Origin: Minisyncoccota bacterium | GTDB taxonomy: Bacteria; Patescibacteriota; Minisyncoccia; Minisyncoccales; Minisyncoccaceae | Length of the DNA: 35,118 nucleotides | NCBI GenBank assembly: GCA_028716905.1 | Contig: JAQUOX010000001.1 | Coordinates: 9,820 to 44,937, forward strand | Direction: 5' to 3' | Shown here: piece after piece, positions 16,541 through 23,180 of the stretch | Numbering within the stretch: position 1 is the first letter of the stretch | Layout of the letters: each line of letters begins with the position of its first letter | The notes under the pieces: generated by a model | What the model was told of the DNA's origin: nothing | Database searches by the model: none | What the model saw: only the letters and a program-made list of their open reading frames with translations | Made by a program: the position numbers and the translations under genes

Positions 16541-17597
16541 AACCGTTTCCAGCATCTCTCAGGATATAGCGATTGATTTGGGCACCGCCAACTGCCTTGT
16601 TTACGTGAGGGGCAGGGGAATTATTTTGTCAGAGCCGTCGGTGGTGGCCGTAAACAGGAAAACAAACCAGGTTTTGGCTATTGGCCGGGAAGCGGAAAAA
16701 ATGGTGGGCAAGACCCCGGGCCATATCGTGGCCATCAGGCCCTTGGTCTCCGGAGTGATTTCCGACTTTGAAGTAACCGAACAGATGCTGAGGTATTTGA
16801 TTCAGAGAGCCCAGCAGGAAAAATTTTACTTGTTAAAACCTAGGGTTATTGTCGGTATTCCTTCCGGAGTCACGGAAGTGGAGAAAAAAGCGGTAATTGA
16901 CGCTACCAAATCCGCCGGCGCCAGAGAGGTGTTTCTGATTGAAGAGCCCATGGCTGCGACCATCGGAGCGAGAATGCCCGTCCATGACCCGGCCGGAAAC
17001 TTTATCGTTGACATCGGCGGAGGAACGACCGAAGTGGCGGTAATCTCTTTGGGAGGAATTGTTGTTTCCAAAAGTTTGAGAATAGCCGGAGACAAGTTGA
17101 ACCAGGATATCGTTAATTACGCCCAAGAGAAATACAGGCTGCTCGTAGGAGAAAGGACGGCGGAAAGGATTAAGATAAGCATCGGGGCGGTGTTTTTTGA
17201 AAAAGAGCCGAAGAGCAAAGGCGACCTTAAGGAAATGCCCATGAGGGGAAGGAATCTGGTCAGCGGTCTGCCTGAAGAAGTGGTTATCAATCAAGCGGAC
17301 GTCAAAAAAGCCATGGAAAGGTCAATCAACCAGATAATCACCGAGATTAAGAATGCCATTGAAATCACTCCTCCCGAGCTTTTGTCCGATATTATGAAAA
17401 AGGGGATTTGCCTGGCCGGCGGAGGAGCCCTTTTAAGGGGACTGGACAAACTGATAACCAAAGAAACGAAAATACCTTGTTATGTGATGGAAGACCCCAT
17501 GACTTTGGTGGCCAGGGGAGCGGGATTGGTCCTGGAGAATTTGGACGAATTCCACGACGTTTTGGTGGAGCTGGAAGAGTTGCAGTCGCCGAGATAA
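16518..17597 (+). CDS. mreB: Rod-shape determining protein MreB, paralog 2
   Basis: SQDIAIDLGTANCLVYVRGRGIILSEPSVVAVN...VDIGGGTTEVAVISLGG...GICLAGGGALLRGLD. Overlaps proS 3' end by 23 nt. Confidence 0.95.
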   Translation: MWKDFFNKTVSSISQDIAIDLGTANCLVYVRGRGIILSEPSVVAVNRKTNQVLAIGREAEKMVGKTPGHIVAIRPLVSGVISDFEVTEQMLRYLIQRAQQEKFYLLKPRVIVGIPSGVTEVEKKAVIDATKSAGAREVFLIEEPMAATIGARMPVHDPAGNFIVDIGGGTTEVAVISLGGIVVSKSLRIAGDKLNQDIVNYAQEKYRLLVGERTAERIKISIGAVFFEKEPKSKGDLKEMPMRGRNLVSGLPEEVVINQADVKKAMERSINQIITEIKNAIEITPPELLSDIMKKGICLAGGGALLRGLDKLITKETKIPCYVMEDPMTLVARGAGLVLENLDEFHDVLVELEELQSPR

Positions 17598-17616
17598 AAC
17601 AAAGCTTTTTTCTTAC

Positions 17617-17644
17617 TTGACAAATAATTTTAATCTGCTAAATT
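17617..17644 (+). promoter_or_regulatory. Candidate rRNA promoter
   Basis: TTGACA (17617-17622) - 16 nt - TAAATT (17639-17644), about 180 nt upstream of 23S. Confidence 0.6.
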
Positions 17645-17689
17645 ATTAACAGGCATGTTAAATAATAAGACCATATTCAAAAACAAAAG

Positions 17690-17749
17690 GCGGTTGTAAA
17701 AGTAGCTTTTATTTTGCTATTTTAAGCCGCTGCGAAGCGGTCTTTTTAT
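17690..17749 (+). promoter_or_regulatory. Two overlapping hairpins (terminator-like and alternative) in 23S leader
   Basis: Terminator-like CCGCT-GCGA-AGCGG + TCTTTTTATT (17727-17749); alternative longer stem GCGGUU(g)UAAAA(g)UAGC/GCUAUUUUAAGCCGC (17690-17706 with 17716-17730). The CCGC strand is shared. Confidence 0.5.
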
Positions 17750-17793
17750 TTGGAAAGCATCTTGAAAAACTAATAAGGAAATAATCAAAGAAG

Positions 17794-17820
17794 AATAAGG
17801 TTATTATTTGCTAGTCAAAA
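17794..17820 (+). promoter_or_regulatory. 5' arm of pre-23S processing stem
   Basis: AATAAGGTTATTATTTGCTAGTCAAAA is nearly complementary to 21925-21953 (TTTTTTGGCTAGCAATTAATAGCTTTATT). Confidence 0.7.
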
Positions 17821-18318
17821 TTGTGATTTTATTTTAAGGGCAAATGGTGGATGCCTTGGGACCAAAAGCGATGAAGGACGTGGCGTAGCTGCGATAAGCC
17901 TCGGGGAGATGTTAGCAATCTTTGATCCGGGGATCTCCGAATGGGGAAACCTAACTTTGCAAAACAAAGTTGTCGTAACAGAAGCTAACCCGCTGAAGTG
18001 AAACATCTCAGTAGGCGGAGGAAAAAGATAACAACAGTTATTCCCTTAGTAGCGGCGAGCGAAGGGGGAAAAGCCCAAACTCATTTGTGTTTTTGCATAA
18101 ATGAGGGTTGTAGGGAAACGGCGTCTATTAAATTAGAGGAAGTAAAAAATATGGCTTAATTAGCTGAATCTCTCTGGAAAGAGGAACCATAGACGGTGAA
18201 AGTCCGGTAAGCAAAAATTGAGTCATGCTTCTTGCTGTTTTACCTGAGTACCATCGGAACAAGACGAGCCGGTGGGAATCTGGCGGGACTACCCGCTAAG
18301 GCTAAATATAATTTGGTC

Positions 18319-18357
<39 letters not shown>

Positions 18358-19795
18358 CAGCCCGGTGAGGGCGGTGAAATAGAACCTGAAACCATTATGC
18401 CCACAAAGAGTCAGAGCTGAATTTATTCAGTGATGGCGTGCTTTTTGCAGAACGAGCCAACGAGTTTCTTTTACTAATTTGTCTAAGCGCTTATGGCGTG
18501 GAGGCACAGGGAAACCGAGTCTTAAAAGGGCGAATTTAATTAGCAGAGGAAGACCCGAAGCCAGACGAGCTTGCCATGGCCAGGATGAAGCTTCTAGAAA
18601 TAGAAGTGGAGGTCCGAACCCGTAGACCGTACAAAATCTTGGGATGAGCTGTGGCAAGGAGTGAAAAGCTAATCGAGTTTGGTAATAGCTGGTTCTTCCC
18701 GAAATAGTTTTAGGACTAGCCTCTCTGATATTTGTCTTTGGAGGTAGAGCACTGGAAGAAATACCGCGGCTTCGGCTAGGTATTTTTACCAAACTCCGAA
18801 TGCCGAAGATATTACAGGGGGAGTCAGACTACGGGGGCGAAGCTCCGTAGTCGCGAGGGGAACAACCCAGACCATCATCTAAGGTCCCTAAATTTAGGCT
18901 AAGTGTTAGTAAGGAGGTGAAATTTCTCAGATAGCTAGGAGGTTAGCTTAGAAGCAGCTACCCTTTAAAAAGTGCGTAACAGCTTACTAGCTAAGAGATT
19001 TTGCGCCGAAGATTTCCGGGACTAAAGCCTAGTGCCGAAGATATGGCTGAATACGTTTTTCGTATTCGGGGTAGGGAAGCGTCTTTATTGCACTGAAGCT
19101 GAACCGCGAGGTTTGGTGGAGCGATAAGGAGTGAGAATGTTGGCATGAGTAACCACAATTGCAGTGAGAGTCTGCAACACCGTAAACCCAAGGTTTCCTT
19201 GGCAATGGAGATCATCCAAGGGTTAGGCGGGCCTTAGGAGAAGCCGAAAGGCGTATCTGATGGACAGCCGGTTAATATTCCGGCCCTCCAATATTTTTCC
19301 GTAGGGTGACGCAATTTAGTAGTTTGGGCGGGTTATTGGATTCCCGTCGACTATCTGAGGGGCAACCCAAGGGTAGGCGTGAAGCCTGTCGCAAGACAGG
19401 TGAAATCAAATGAGCAAGTTGCCCAGAAAAACCCGCAGGGTTAAGGATATTGGATCCGTACCGTAAACCGACACAGGTGGGTGGGCACAAGTGTGCCAAG
19501 GTGAACAAGTGAAAGGTCCTGAAGGAACTCGGCAAAAAAGTGGTCGTAACTTCGGGAGAAGACCTCCCTTTTAAGTTTTTTGCTTTTGCAATTTATATAA
19601 AAAGGGCGCAGCGAGCGTATCTCTAGCGACTGTTTATCAAAAACACAGGTCCCTGCTCAACTCGCAAGAGGAAGTATAGGGGCTGAGGCCTGACCAGTGC
19701 CAGAGTGTTAAAAGTGGTTGTTGTTTCAGCAATGGGACAGCTGTCCGCTCCAAGCCTCTGGTGAACGTCCGCGGTAACTCTGACCGTGTTAAAGT

Positions 19796-20049
19796 AGAAC
19801 AACGCACTGCTTTAGTAAAATCTGGCTATATGCTGGAAAACCTGGTGTATCCGGCGTTACTCGGGTAATTTTACCCAGTGAAAAAACGTCCGGTGCAGGC
19901 AATCAGCAGGAAAGACTCCGTACCATATATTGGAGAATCCTCAGAGACTATACGCCGGACTCATTTAAAGAAAACTGTTTAAGTGAGAAGATATAGTCCG
20001 AACTTCATGGCGACATGAAGAGTTCCACGAAAGTGGATATAACATATTG
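19796..20049 (+). ncRNA. Group I intron without ORF in 23S at E. coli position 1931 (254 nt)
   Basis: Exons rejoin as ...TTAAAGT|AGCGTAATCCCTTGTCGG. 5' exon ends in U and intron ends in G. IGS GCTTTA (19809-19814) pairs with exon TAAAGT. R/S-type elements CAGAGACTATA and AAGATATAGTCC. Confidence 0.9.
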
Positions 20050-20624
20050 AGCGTAATCCCTTGTCGGGTAAGTTCCGACCCGCATGAAAGGCTTAACGAC
20101 TAGAGAACTGTCTCCAGGACTTGCTTGGTGAAATCGCAATAGGGGTGAGAATGCCCCTTACCTGTGGCTAGACAGAAAGACCCCGGGAGCTTTACTATAC
20201 CCTGACATTGAGTTTTGATATTAAATGCGTAGCATAGGTGGGAGACTTTGAAATCGTTCTTTCGGGAGCGGTGGAGTCGTCAGTGAAATACCACTCTTTT
20301 AACGTCAGAATTCTAACTTTGTTTGTTGAGAAGACAAACGGAAGACAGTGTTTGGTTGGTAGTTTAAGTGGGGCGCTTTTCTCCTAAAAGGTAACGGAGA
20401 AGTTTAAAGGTCAGCTAGCTCCGGATGGAAATCGGAGTGGTCCTGTAAAGGGAAAAGCTGGCTTAACTGCAAGACGGATATGTCGCGCAGGTGGGAAACC
20501 AGAACTTAGTGAACCGACCATGGTTCGTAGGACCGTGGAAGATCATCAGACAAAAGTTACCCCGGGGATAACAGGCTGGTAGTGCCCGAGAGTCCACATC
20601 AACGGCACTGTTCGGCACCTCGAT

Positions 20625-21549
20625 AAAATAGCCGATTGTCGAGGATAAACCAACTCATAACGGAGAAAACCATATACAATAACCCAGTAATTTGTTATAA
20701 TTTATATACAATTAGAGCAAATACCAGTATATGGTCAACACCGTGGGAAGTTGCGAAAGTAAACATTGGCACAAAAAATGGATTCCGATCAAAGAATCTC
20801 TTAGCTTAAATTTAAGACAAAGAGAATTGATTGTCGGGTCCCTTCTTGGTGATGGAACAATGCGTTTGGGCAAAGGTGCTCAAAATGTCAACTTTAAAGT
20901 AGAACATGGATTAATGCAAAAAGAGTATGTGATATGGAAATATCGAATACTTAAACAATTCGTTTTTACTGAACCAAAGATAAGCTATAGATACGATAAG
21001 AGCGGAAGACGATATGAAAAATCTTGGTGGTTCAGAACGATAAGGCATCCAGGTTTTACAAAAATATACAGAGAATTCTACGAAGGAGAAAGTTATAGGA
21101 ATGGTAAAAAAATTATTCCTGCAAAAATTGAGAAATATCTTACTCCATTGGTATTAGCTGTATGGATTATGGACGATGGTTCATTTTCCAGAAATAGAGT
21201 TGATATAAGTACGCATTCCTTTTCTTTGTTAGATATAAATATTTTGCAAAGATGTTTTAAAGATATCTTTAGCCTCAATGCAAATTATTACAATGATTTT
21301 GACAGAGGACACAGAATTTATTTCAATCAAGAAGAAACGAAAAAATTAGTAAAAATTATCGGTCCATATATCATCCCTTCGATGATGTATAAGATAAATT
21401 TCGCAACCCCGTAACGACTGGATTCTCGTCAATGCCAAAAAGGCGAGATGAAGATAGTATTTTTGGAAATACTATAACACGTTGGTATCTAGAACGGACA
21501 CTCTAGATAAAGGTATAGTCTGCGCTATTAGTAATAATAGAATTTAGTG
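20625..21549 (+). mobile_element. Group I intron with homing endonuclease ORF in 23S at E. coli position 2504 (925 nt)
   Basis: Exons rejoin as ...GGCACCTCGAT|GTCGGCTCATCACATCC. Terminal exon U and intron G. IGS GTCGAGG (20638-20644) pairs with exon CCTCGAT over 7 bp. S-like AAGGTATAGTC near 3' end. Confidence 0.92.
20731..21414 (+). CDS. LAGLIDADG homing endonuclease (intron-encoded)
   Basis: Two LAGLIDADG-type motifs: LIVGSLLGDGTM and LAVWIMDDGSF; lies wholly inside the 23S intron. Confidence 0.9.
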   Translation: MVNTVGSCESKHWHKKWIPIKESLSLNLRQRELIVGSLLGDGTMRLGKGAQNVNFKVEHGLMQKEYVIWKYRILKQFVFTEPKISYRYDKSGRRYEKSWWFRTIRHPGFTKIYREFYEGESYRNGKKIIPAKIEKYLTPLVLAVWIMDDGSFSRNRVDISTHSFSLLDINILQRCFKDIFSLNANYYNDFDRGHRIYFNQEETKKLVKIIGPYIIPSMMYKINFATP

Positions 21550-21924
21550 GTCGGCTCATCACATCCTGGGGCTGTAGAAGGTCCCAAGGGTTTGGCTGTT
21601 CGCCAATTAAAGTGGTTCGTGAGCTGGGTTCAGACCGTCGTGAGACAGGTTGGTCCATATCTACCACAGGCGTTAAGTTTTGAGGAGAGTTGTCCTTTGT
21701 ACGAGAGGATCAGGATGAACTAACCTCTGGTGTATCAGTTGTCGCGCCAGCGGCATTGCTGAGTAGCTATGTTAGGACGGGATAAGAGCTGAAAGCATCT
21801 AAGCTCGAAGCCTCCTCCAAGATTAGAACTTTTACCCAGGTTAAAGACTATGACCTTGATAGGGCGCAGGTGTAAGCTTCGTGAGGAGTTGAGCCGAGCG
21901 CTACTAATTGGGTTTAAAAATCTC

Positions 21925-21953
21925 TTTTTTGGCTAGCAATTAATAGCTTTATT
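21925..21953 (+). promoter_or_regulatory. 3' arm of pre-23S processing stem
   Basis: Reverse complement AATAAAGCTATTAATTGCTAGCCAAAAAA matches 17794-17820 with few mismatches. Confidence 0.7.
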
Positions 21954-21977: not shown

Positions 21978-22086
21978 TATGGGGGTAATACTGGAAGTGC
22001 TCCACCCGATCCCATTCCGAACTCGGAAGTGAAATCTTCCCAGGCCGATGATAGTGGTTTCCGCGAAAGTAGGTCGCCCCCGTATT
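21978..22086 (+). rRNA. rrf: 5S rRNA
   Basis: TGGAAGTGCTCCACCCGATCCCATTCCGAACTCGGAAGTGAAA...GATGATAGTGG...AAAGTAGGTCGCCCCC with terminal helix ATGGGGG/CCCCCGTAT. Confidence 0.92.
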
Positions 22087-22107
22087 AAAGATTGAAAGGA
22101 GTTTTTG

Positions 22108-22136
22108 TTTACAAAAGCGTTTTGTCGTGGTATACG
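22108..22136 (+). promoter_or_regulatory. Promoter of small Cys-rich ORF
   Basis: TTTACA (22108-22113) - 17 nt - TATACG (22131-22136). Confidence 0.6.
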
Positions 22137-22162
22137 TTAAATTAGTTCGTAAAGGAGGAATT

Positions 22163-22312
22163 ATGCAAACCTGCAAAGAGAGATGCGGAATCACTTTCTG
22201 GCAATGTACATGGAGAACTATTTGCTGTCTCGCCGCAGATTTAAGGAAACGAGCCCTGCAAACCTGCAAAGAGAGATGCGGAATCACTTTCTGGCAATGT
22301 GTGCGGAGGTGA
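22163..22312 (+). CDS. Candidate 49-aa cysteine-rich repeat peptide
   Basis: AAAGGAGG SD-like (22151-22158) then ATG; MQTCKERCGITFWQCTWRTICCLAADLRKRALQTCKERCGITFWQCVRR*; followed by terminator. An overlapping frame is also open, so coding status is uncertain. Confidence 0.45.
   Translation: MQTCKERCGITFWQCTWRTICCLAADLRKRALQTCKERCGITFWQCVRR
22164..22207 (+). repeat. 44-bp perfect direct repeat, copy 1
   Basis: TGCAAACCTGCAAAGAGAGATGCGGAATCACTTTCTGGCAATGT. Confidence 0.95.
22257..22300 (+). repeat. 44-bp perfect direct repeat, copy 2 (93-bp offset)
   Basis: Identical to 22164-22207; the 93-nt offset keeps the reading frame. Confidence 0.95.
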
Positions 22313-22329
22313 TTATCTGCCCTACATTT

Positions 22330-22352
22330 AAGAGCTCATGGGCTCTTTTTTT
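22330..22352 (+). terminator. Rho-independent terminator after small ORF
   Basis: AAGAGC-tcatgg-GCTCTT followed by a T run. Confidence 0.75.
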
Positions 22353-22376
22353 ATTTGCTTTTTTTGGCAGATTTAA

Positions 22377-22382
22377 TATAAT
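22377..22382 (+). promoter_or_regulatory. -10 box of mreC promoter
   Basis: TATAAT exactly 6 nt before ATG 22389; weak -35 TTGCTT at 22355. Confidence 0.55.
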
Positions 22383-22388
22383 AACCCT

Positions 22389-23180
22389 ATGAGCTATAAC
22401 CCCGTTAAAAAAAGGCTATTGATTCTATTTCTCCTCCTGATTGTTTTCGCCGTTCTGGCATTGTTTTCCGGTCAGATTAAGAGTTTTTTTTACAATAAAT
22501 CTTTGAACCTGCAGTTCATGTTCTGGCAGTCGGGCAGAGCCCAAAAGACGGACGAAGCCGTTGCAAAGCTGGTTGAAGAAAACCAAAAACTTTTGTCCCA
22601 GTTGACTGATTTGGAAACAACAAAGAAAGAAAACGAATTTTTTCGTCAGGCTCTGGGGTTGGGCCTGGAAAAAGAATTTGATTTGATTTTGGCCCAGGCC
22701 ACGGCCAAGAACACTTTTACTTTTAAGGGGATTACTTTCGAGGACTCGATATTAATCAATAAAGGAAAAAATGACGGGATAAGGAAGGATTTTCCGGTGA
22801 TATTGTCCGATAAGATTCTGGTCGGAAAGGTGGCCGAGGTTTACGATTCTTTCTCCCGGGTTGTTTTGATTTCCAACAAGGACAGCATGATTGACGTTGA
22901 GATTCAGGACACCGGCCTTTTCGCCCTGGCCAAAGGAGAAGGGAATTTGAAAATCGTTCTGGATTTGTTTCCCAAAGACAAGGAATTAAACGAGGGAACA
23001 TTGGCGTATACCAGCGCTTTGGGCGGCATTTATCCTTCGGGCCTGGTTTTGGGGCAAATCAGGAATATTAAGAAAATAGACAATGAGGCCTTTATCAGGG
23101 CGGATATCGAGCCGGCCTTTGATTTGGCCCAGCTGGACCGGGTTTTTGTCATTAAAACAGCGAAAATAGTCAATGATTAA
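22389..23180 (+). CDS. mreC: Rod shape-determining protein MreC
   Basis: N-terminal TM, coiled coil, beta region (ILVGKVAEVYDSFSRVVLISNKDSMIDVEIQDTG...GLVLGQI); followed by mreD/mrdA. Confidence 0.85.
   Translation: MSYNPVKKRLLILFLLLIVFAVLALFSGQIKSFFYNKSLNLQFMFWQSGRAQKTDEAVAKLVEENQKLLSQLTDLETTKKENEFFRQALGLGLEKEFDLILAQATAKNTFTFKGITFEDSILINKGKNDGIRKDFPVILSDKILVGKVAEVYDSFSRVVLISNKDSMIDVEIQDTGLFALAKGEGNLKIVLDLFPKDKELNEGTLAYTSALGGIYPSGLVLGQIRNIKKIDNEAFIRADIEPAFDLAQLDRVFVIKTAKIVND

Follow-up and report, generated by a model that had tools for sequence, protein, structure and literature searches.

The end of the rRNA operon and the unit behind it

The window, by which we mean the whole stretch of 35,118 nucleotides that was analysed, comes from a genome of 508 kb in 30 contigs. 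An interrupted 23S rRNA gene and a 5S rRNA gene are followed in it by a short unit with a 49-aa ORF, and then by a putative mreC homologue. The features are as follows.

17824..21925, + strand: 23S rRNA gene, interrupted (Rfam RF02541, 2162 bits)
21978..22085, + strand: 5S rRNA gene (Rfam RF00001, 77.5 bits)
22086..22107, + strand: conserved 3' flank of the 5S gene, ending in ...GATTGAAAGGAGTTTTTG, near-identical in G009, G013, G014, L106 and G015
22108..22136, + strand: promoter-like TTTACA-N17-TATACG with a TG extension (read from the sequence)
22151..22158, + strand: Shine-Dalgarno sequence AAAGGAGG (read from the sequence)
22163..22312, + strand: 49-aa ORF with eight Cys and an internal 14-residue repeat (translation; possible orthologue in G013)
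22164..22207, + strand: exact 44-nt direct repeat, copy 1 (repeat search)
22257..22300, + strand: exact 44-nt direct repeat, copy 2, in frame (repeat search)
22330..22353, + strand: terminator-like hairpin AAGAGCT-CATG-GGCTCTT with a T run (terminator scan)
22389..23180, + strand: putative homologue of mreC that has a separate -10 box, TATAATAACCCTATG (protein matches, seen in 16 of the 21 genomes of the family)

The initial annotation had placed the unit between 5S and mreC, and this is right, as judged from the Rfam identification of 5S and from protein matches of mreC in relatives. The name mreC itself is taken from that annotation and is not based on a family model. The homologue in the window is 86% identical to that of G009, a genome of the same genus. 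The flank at 22086..22107 probably belongs to the stem of the 5S precursor.

The 23S gene has insertions of its own. A group I intron lies at 19765-20020 (Rfam RF00028, 74.5 bits), and a second insertion, which is probably a further group I intron uncalled by Rfam, contains an ORF for a LAGLIDADG_2 homing endonuclease (20731-21414, E 6e-44). For the rRNA genes of CPR in general, such an occurrence of an intron and an endonuclease ORF has been described (PMC11270868). There is neither a 16S rRNA gene nor a tRNA gene in the window, and the 23S-5S pair has no adjacent 16S (17550-17824).

The expression signals that had been pointed out are all present. TTTACA occupies 22108-22113 and is followed, after a spacer of 17 nt, by TATACG at 22131-22136 with a TG before it (TGG-TATACG); the -10 box matches the consensus at four of six positions, and the combination was below the pass level in the promoter scan of the window. 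AAAGGAGG precedes an ATG at 22163, from which the ORF runs to the stop codon TGA at 22310-22312. This exact sequence is found 3-10 nt upstream of only one of the 793 ATGs in the window, and GGAGG is found there for 1.1% of them. Since most local genes lack a Shine-Dalgarno sequence (an SD-like 4-mer is seen for only 3 of 25 window genes), such a signal is not the local norm. The stem-loop of the terminator lies at 22330-22347, with the T run after it; terminator-like sites in the scanned stretch are about as frequent as the chance expectation of 0.9 +/- 0.9. We also considered a leader-peptide attenuator for mreC and dropped it, because past the terminator there is a separate -10 box for mreC.

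A slot with fixed flanks and variable content

The 5S gene and mreC adjoin each other also in G013, G014, G015, G017, G018 and G020, and the G009 contig starts inside the same conserved 5S flank. The synteny is conserved in the family, and what lies between the two genes is variable. G009 is the nearest relative in which the site was read, and the gene found there, which encodes a type IV pilin-like N-terminus and a Laminin_G_3 domain (L031, 1900-2820; two N's near the start of the gene sequence), differs from the ORF of the window. In G013 the interval holds a 46-aa ORF and a 62-aa ORF. In G014 there is, by eye, a reverse-strand gene (L053, about 560-1240), while in L106 a 129-aa ORF and a terminator are followed by a reverse-strand gene at 2104-2784. 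In G015, G017, G018 and G020 the interval is roughly 85-105 nt; the two of these short intervals that were read contain a hairpin and the mreC start region. Hairpins between 5S and mreC were seen in G020, G015 and G013.

Directly 3' of 5S the sequence is nearly invariant in the relatives, and in several of them a promoter-like site then follows at the same place. This site is TTTACA-16-TATAAT in G009 (11 of 12 matches), TTGCCA-17-TATTTT in G013 (9 of 12) and, by eye, TTGACA-17-TATAAA in L106. The interval is a swap slot. It resembles other variable slots with orphan small ORFs in its fixed flanks (5S and mreC) and interchangeable contents, in the relative-free short ORFs that it holds, and in the fixed place of its promoter-like site; it differs in the exact internal repeat of the window ORF. 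Signs of mobility, such as an integrase or a tRNA site, were not seen there.

Two side observations can be added. The reverse-strand slot genes of G014 and L106 encode products of about 225 aa of unknown function, distantly alike by eye. L106 (JAQTSA010000143.1) is filed under an Omnitrophota MAG, yet it has the 5S-mreC arrangement and the 5S flank of this Patescibacteria family; the contig is probably misbinned.

The unit had been called autonomous, which is doubtful. No terminator was seen from 5S to the start of the ORF, so rRNA read-through is likely, and the 23S gene is likely the upstream part of the same transcription unit as the ORF. The terminator of the window sits at the position where insert-free relatives carry a hairpin after 5S, and is therefore likely to end the rRNA transcript too. 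The unit is a resident of a slot behind rRNA genes, rather than an isolated autonomous unit.

The 49-aa ORF, its repeat and its possible orthologue

The translation, 49 residues with eight Cys, is as initially quoted. The duplicated 14-residue motif is there as well, encoded by the exact 44-nt repeat. The two copies are 100% identical, and because their spacing of 93 nt equals 31 codons they share one reading frame. Apart from this one, the whole window has just one close direct repeat of 24 nt or more; it measures 25 nt and lies inside a coding region. The 44-nt repeat is certainly beyond chance. A search of the window's own genome that allowed as many as 3 mismatches to the core of the repeat found no second site.

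Does the ORF look translated? Shuffles that preserve the A-B-A repeat structure gave an open frame of its length in 23% of cases, so that the open frame alone is no more than chance. An open frame with at least eight Cys is rare, coming up in 0.035% of shuffles for that frame and in 0.19% when every forward frame is admitted. By a codon model for which 25 genes of the window were the training set, the ORF frame is worth -0.28 bits per codon. None of the 155 equally long gene segments scores so low, and the value is of the kind usually seen when reading off frame. The codon score clearly does not favour translation. It is partly driven by richness in Cys and Trp, and the small ORF of G013 scores low too (-0.04), so that for peptides of this kind it is a weak test. 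The +2 frame, which stays open over roughly 22153-22392, scores higher than the ORF frame (0.065), surpassing more than 99% of off-frame segments. We rejected it as a real gene and put the matches found for it down to chance. Its matches in family f192 have E 2e-3 or weaker. Those inspected (L091, L093) concern a short CSEVIICP-like stretch of one kind of protein, which we take to resemble the YbeY endoribonuclease. A match in the window's own genome (C1:3204-3311) differs from the YbeY-like protein, and the +2 frame has no significant relative in phages, plasmids or the PDB.

A DNA-level search of 382 genomes of the phylum found no relative of the unit; matches of 31 and 21 nt in G312 and G334 were rejected, for they sit in unrelated sequence. 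DNA similarity searches gave no more than chance-level matches in phages and plasmids and none in E. coli, and the exact 44-mer does not occur in viral contigs. At the protein level no convincing relative was found in 247 genomes of the order, and scans of viral and GTDB contigs returned pattern matches of which none was confirmed.

The initial annotation had suggested a secreted or metal-binding micro-protein, or a structured RNA whose ORF is incidental. The 49-mer has a net charge of +7 and a maximum KD19 of 0.77, and hydropathy reveals no hydrophobic signal or transmembrane stretch, hence no sign of secretion; the suggestion of a secreted peptide is unsupported. Its cysteines are spaced C-x3-C-x6-C-x5-CC-x12-C-x3-C-x6-C, six of the eight falling in the two copies of C-x3-C-x6-C. 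Pairs of the CxC or CxxC kind are typical of metal sites. Clusters of them would be expected in metallothionein-like peptides, whereas the 49-mer has neither, and judged by this spacing metal binding appears unsupported. The AlphaFold model is helical and of low confidence (mean pLDDT 59, pTM 0.30). No solved-structure relative was found in the PDB and no match in PADLOC, and the best PHROG match (E 0.018, unknown function) was counted as none.

The Pfam profile of Toxin_21 (PF08091), a spider insecticidal peptide, reaches 21.7 bits, where the family cut-off is 21. The match consists of two short stretches, the best of 15 residues over profile positions 14-28 of 40, and it is this Cys-containing stretch that lifts the score past the cut-off. 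The 49-mer differs from the toxins in its bacterial origin and in having no signal or propeptide, and the full six-Cys framework of a cystine knot over about 40 residues is absent. We rejected membership: the match is driven by composition in a Cys/Trp-rich sequence and is no evidence of a toxin.

The possible orthologue is the 46-aa ORF of G013 (L052), found at the same place after 5S. It starts MSCESRIGISWWQRVKR, and copy 2 in the window reads QTCKERCGITFWQCVRR; the two are identical at 8 of 17 positions and similar at 13 of 17 (BLASTP E 3e-5). When the G013 spacer was shuffled by dinucleotides, 10 of 10,000 versions scored as high as this pair (51), as did 6 of 40,000 residue shuffles. The match spans only 17 residues. 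It was spotted by eye when about four spacers were compared, and correcting for this puts the probability at a few in a thousand. Counting the shared start position would improve it somewhat: the ATG lies 68 nt past the 5S end in G013 and 78 nt in the window, on the same strand. A pattern made from both motifs has exact matches only in the two window copies and in G013 among 247 genomes of the order, a test that is partly circular because the pattern derives from the pair; no third member turned up in these genomes. The G013 ORF differs in having one copy of the motif, in which just the first Cys of three is kept, and at its C-terminus the G013 peptide has a hydrophobic helix (maximum KD19 2.73) that the window peptide (0.77) lacks. 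We regard the case for orthology of the two ORFs as suggestive.

What the unit might be

Because the slot holds different small genes in relatives, we consider it most likely that the unit is a mini-gene, young and lineage-specific, with putative expression and belonging to no known peptide family or RNA. We give about even credence to a lineage-specific orphan small ORF residing in a gene-turnover slot between 5S and mreC of this Patescibacteria family. Its origin would be a short ORF with the QTCKERCGITFWQ-VRR segment, in which 93 bp were recently duplicated in tandem (A-B-A); the N-terminus of the predicted membrane peptide of 46 aa in G013 is maybe the single-copy counterpart of that segment. 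Transcription would come from rRNA read-through and from the 5S-proximal promoter and would end near 22353, and the strong Shine-Dalgarno sequence would let ribosomes make a 49-mer that is soluble, strongly basic and rich in Cys and Trp. Since this 49-mer lacks the membrane helix of G013, it may be a fast-evolving peptide that acts at the face of the membrane, or else an ORF that is being lost. The young orphan ORF is possibly decaying.

The serious rival is that we are looking at non-coding spacer or gene debris, in which the ORF is incidental, the repeat is a product of slippage, and promoter and terminator are left from the last gene in the slot. The off-frame-like codon score, the ease with which shuffles leave the frame open and the failure of the searches to find relatives all agree with this; so does the -10 box, which is degenerate beside that of G009 (TATACG vs TATAAT), and the more coding-like +2 frame may be what is left of a vanished gene, although no relatives of it are confirmed. 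Against debris stand the strong, well-spaced Shine-Dalgarno sequence, the eight Cys beyond composition and the likeness, close to the start, to an ORF at the same site in G013. We consider debris a real though lesser possibility. If the unit were instead a structured or base-pairing small RNA of two 44-nt modules, the promoter-like start, the terminator and an exactly repeated module of sRNA size would find an explanation. Yet fold energies equal those of shuffles (the z-score is -0.13 when the entire unit is folded, -0.28 when one repeat is, and +0.17 when the two repeats are folded together with their spacer), no Rfam family exceeds its gathering threshold at the unit (the best sub-threshold match has 19 vs 41 bits), and the search of the genome that tolerated 3 mismatches met the repeat core nowhere else. 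The proposal of a structured RNA fails on these grounds, and we regard a small RNA of any such kind as highly improbable.

A functional cysteine peptide, metal-binding or disulfide-bonded and possibly secreted, would account for the density and the repeated spacing of its Cys and for the Toxin_21 score. The hydropathy, the Cys spacing, the shortness of the Toxin_21 match, the low-confidence model with no relative of solved structure and the loss of two of the three motif cysteines in G013 speak against it, and it seems to us improbable. Somewhat less so, but still unlikely, is that the interval serves as a dedicated expression slot, with a promoter on the 5S side for captured genes, and that the 49-mer is functional and founds a new family with the G013 peptide. 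The kept promoter would then drive whichever lineage-specific small membrane, surface or pilin-like gene arrives, and the 49-mer would be a functional, recently internally duplicated Cys-rich peptide. Of the initial interpretation, the micro-protein is what stands: the Shine-Dalgarno sequence, the Cys enrichment and the possibly orthologous G013 ORF make it the best single reading, while its secreted, metal-binding and RNA variants find no support.

Orphan small ORFs of CPR genomes are mostly unannotated. The peptide alone changes little unless its expression is demonstrated. A slot with fixed flanks and a fixed promoter-like site is a tractable place to follow how short genes are gained, duplicated and lost.
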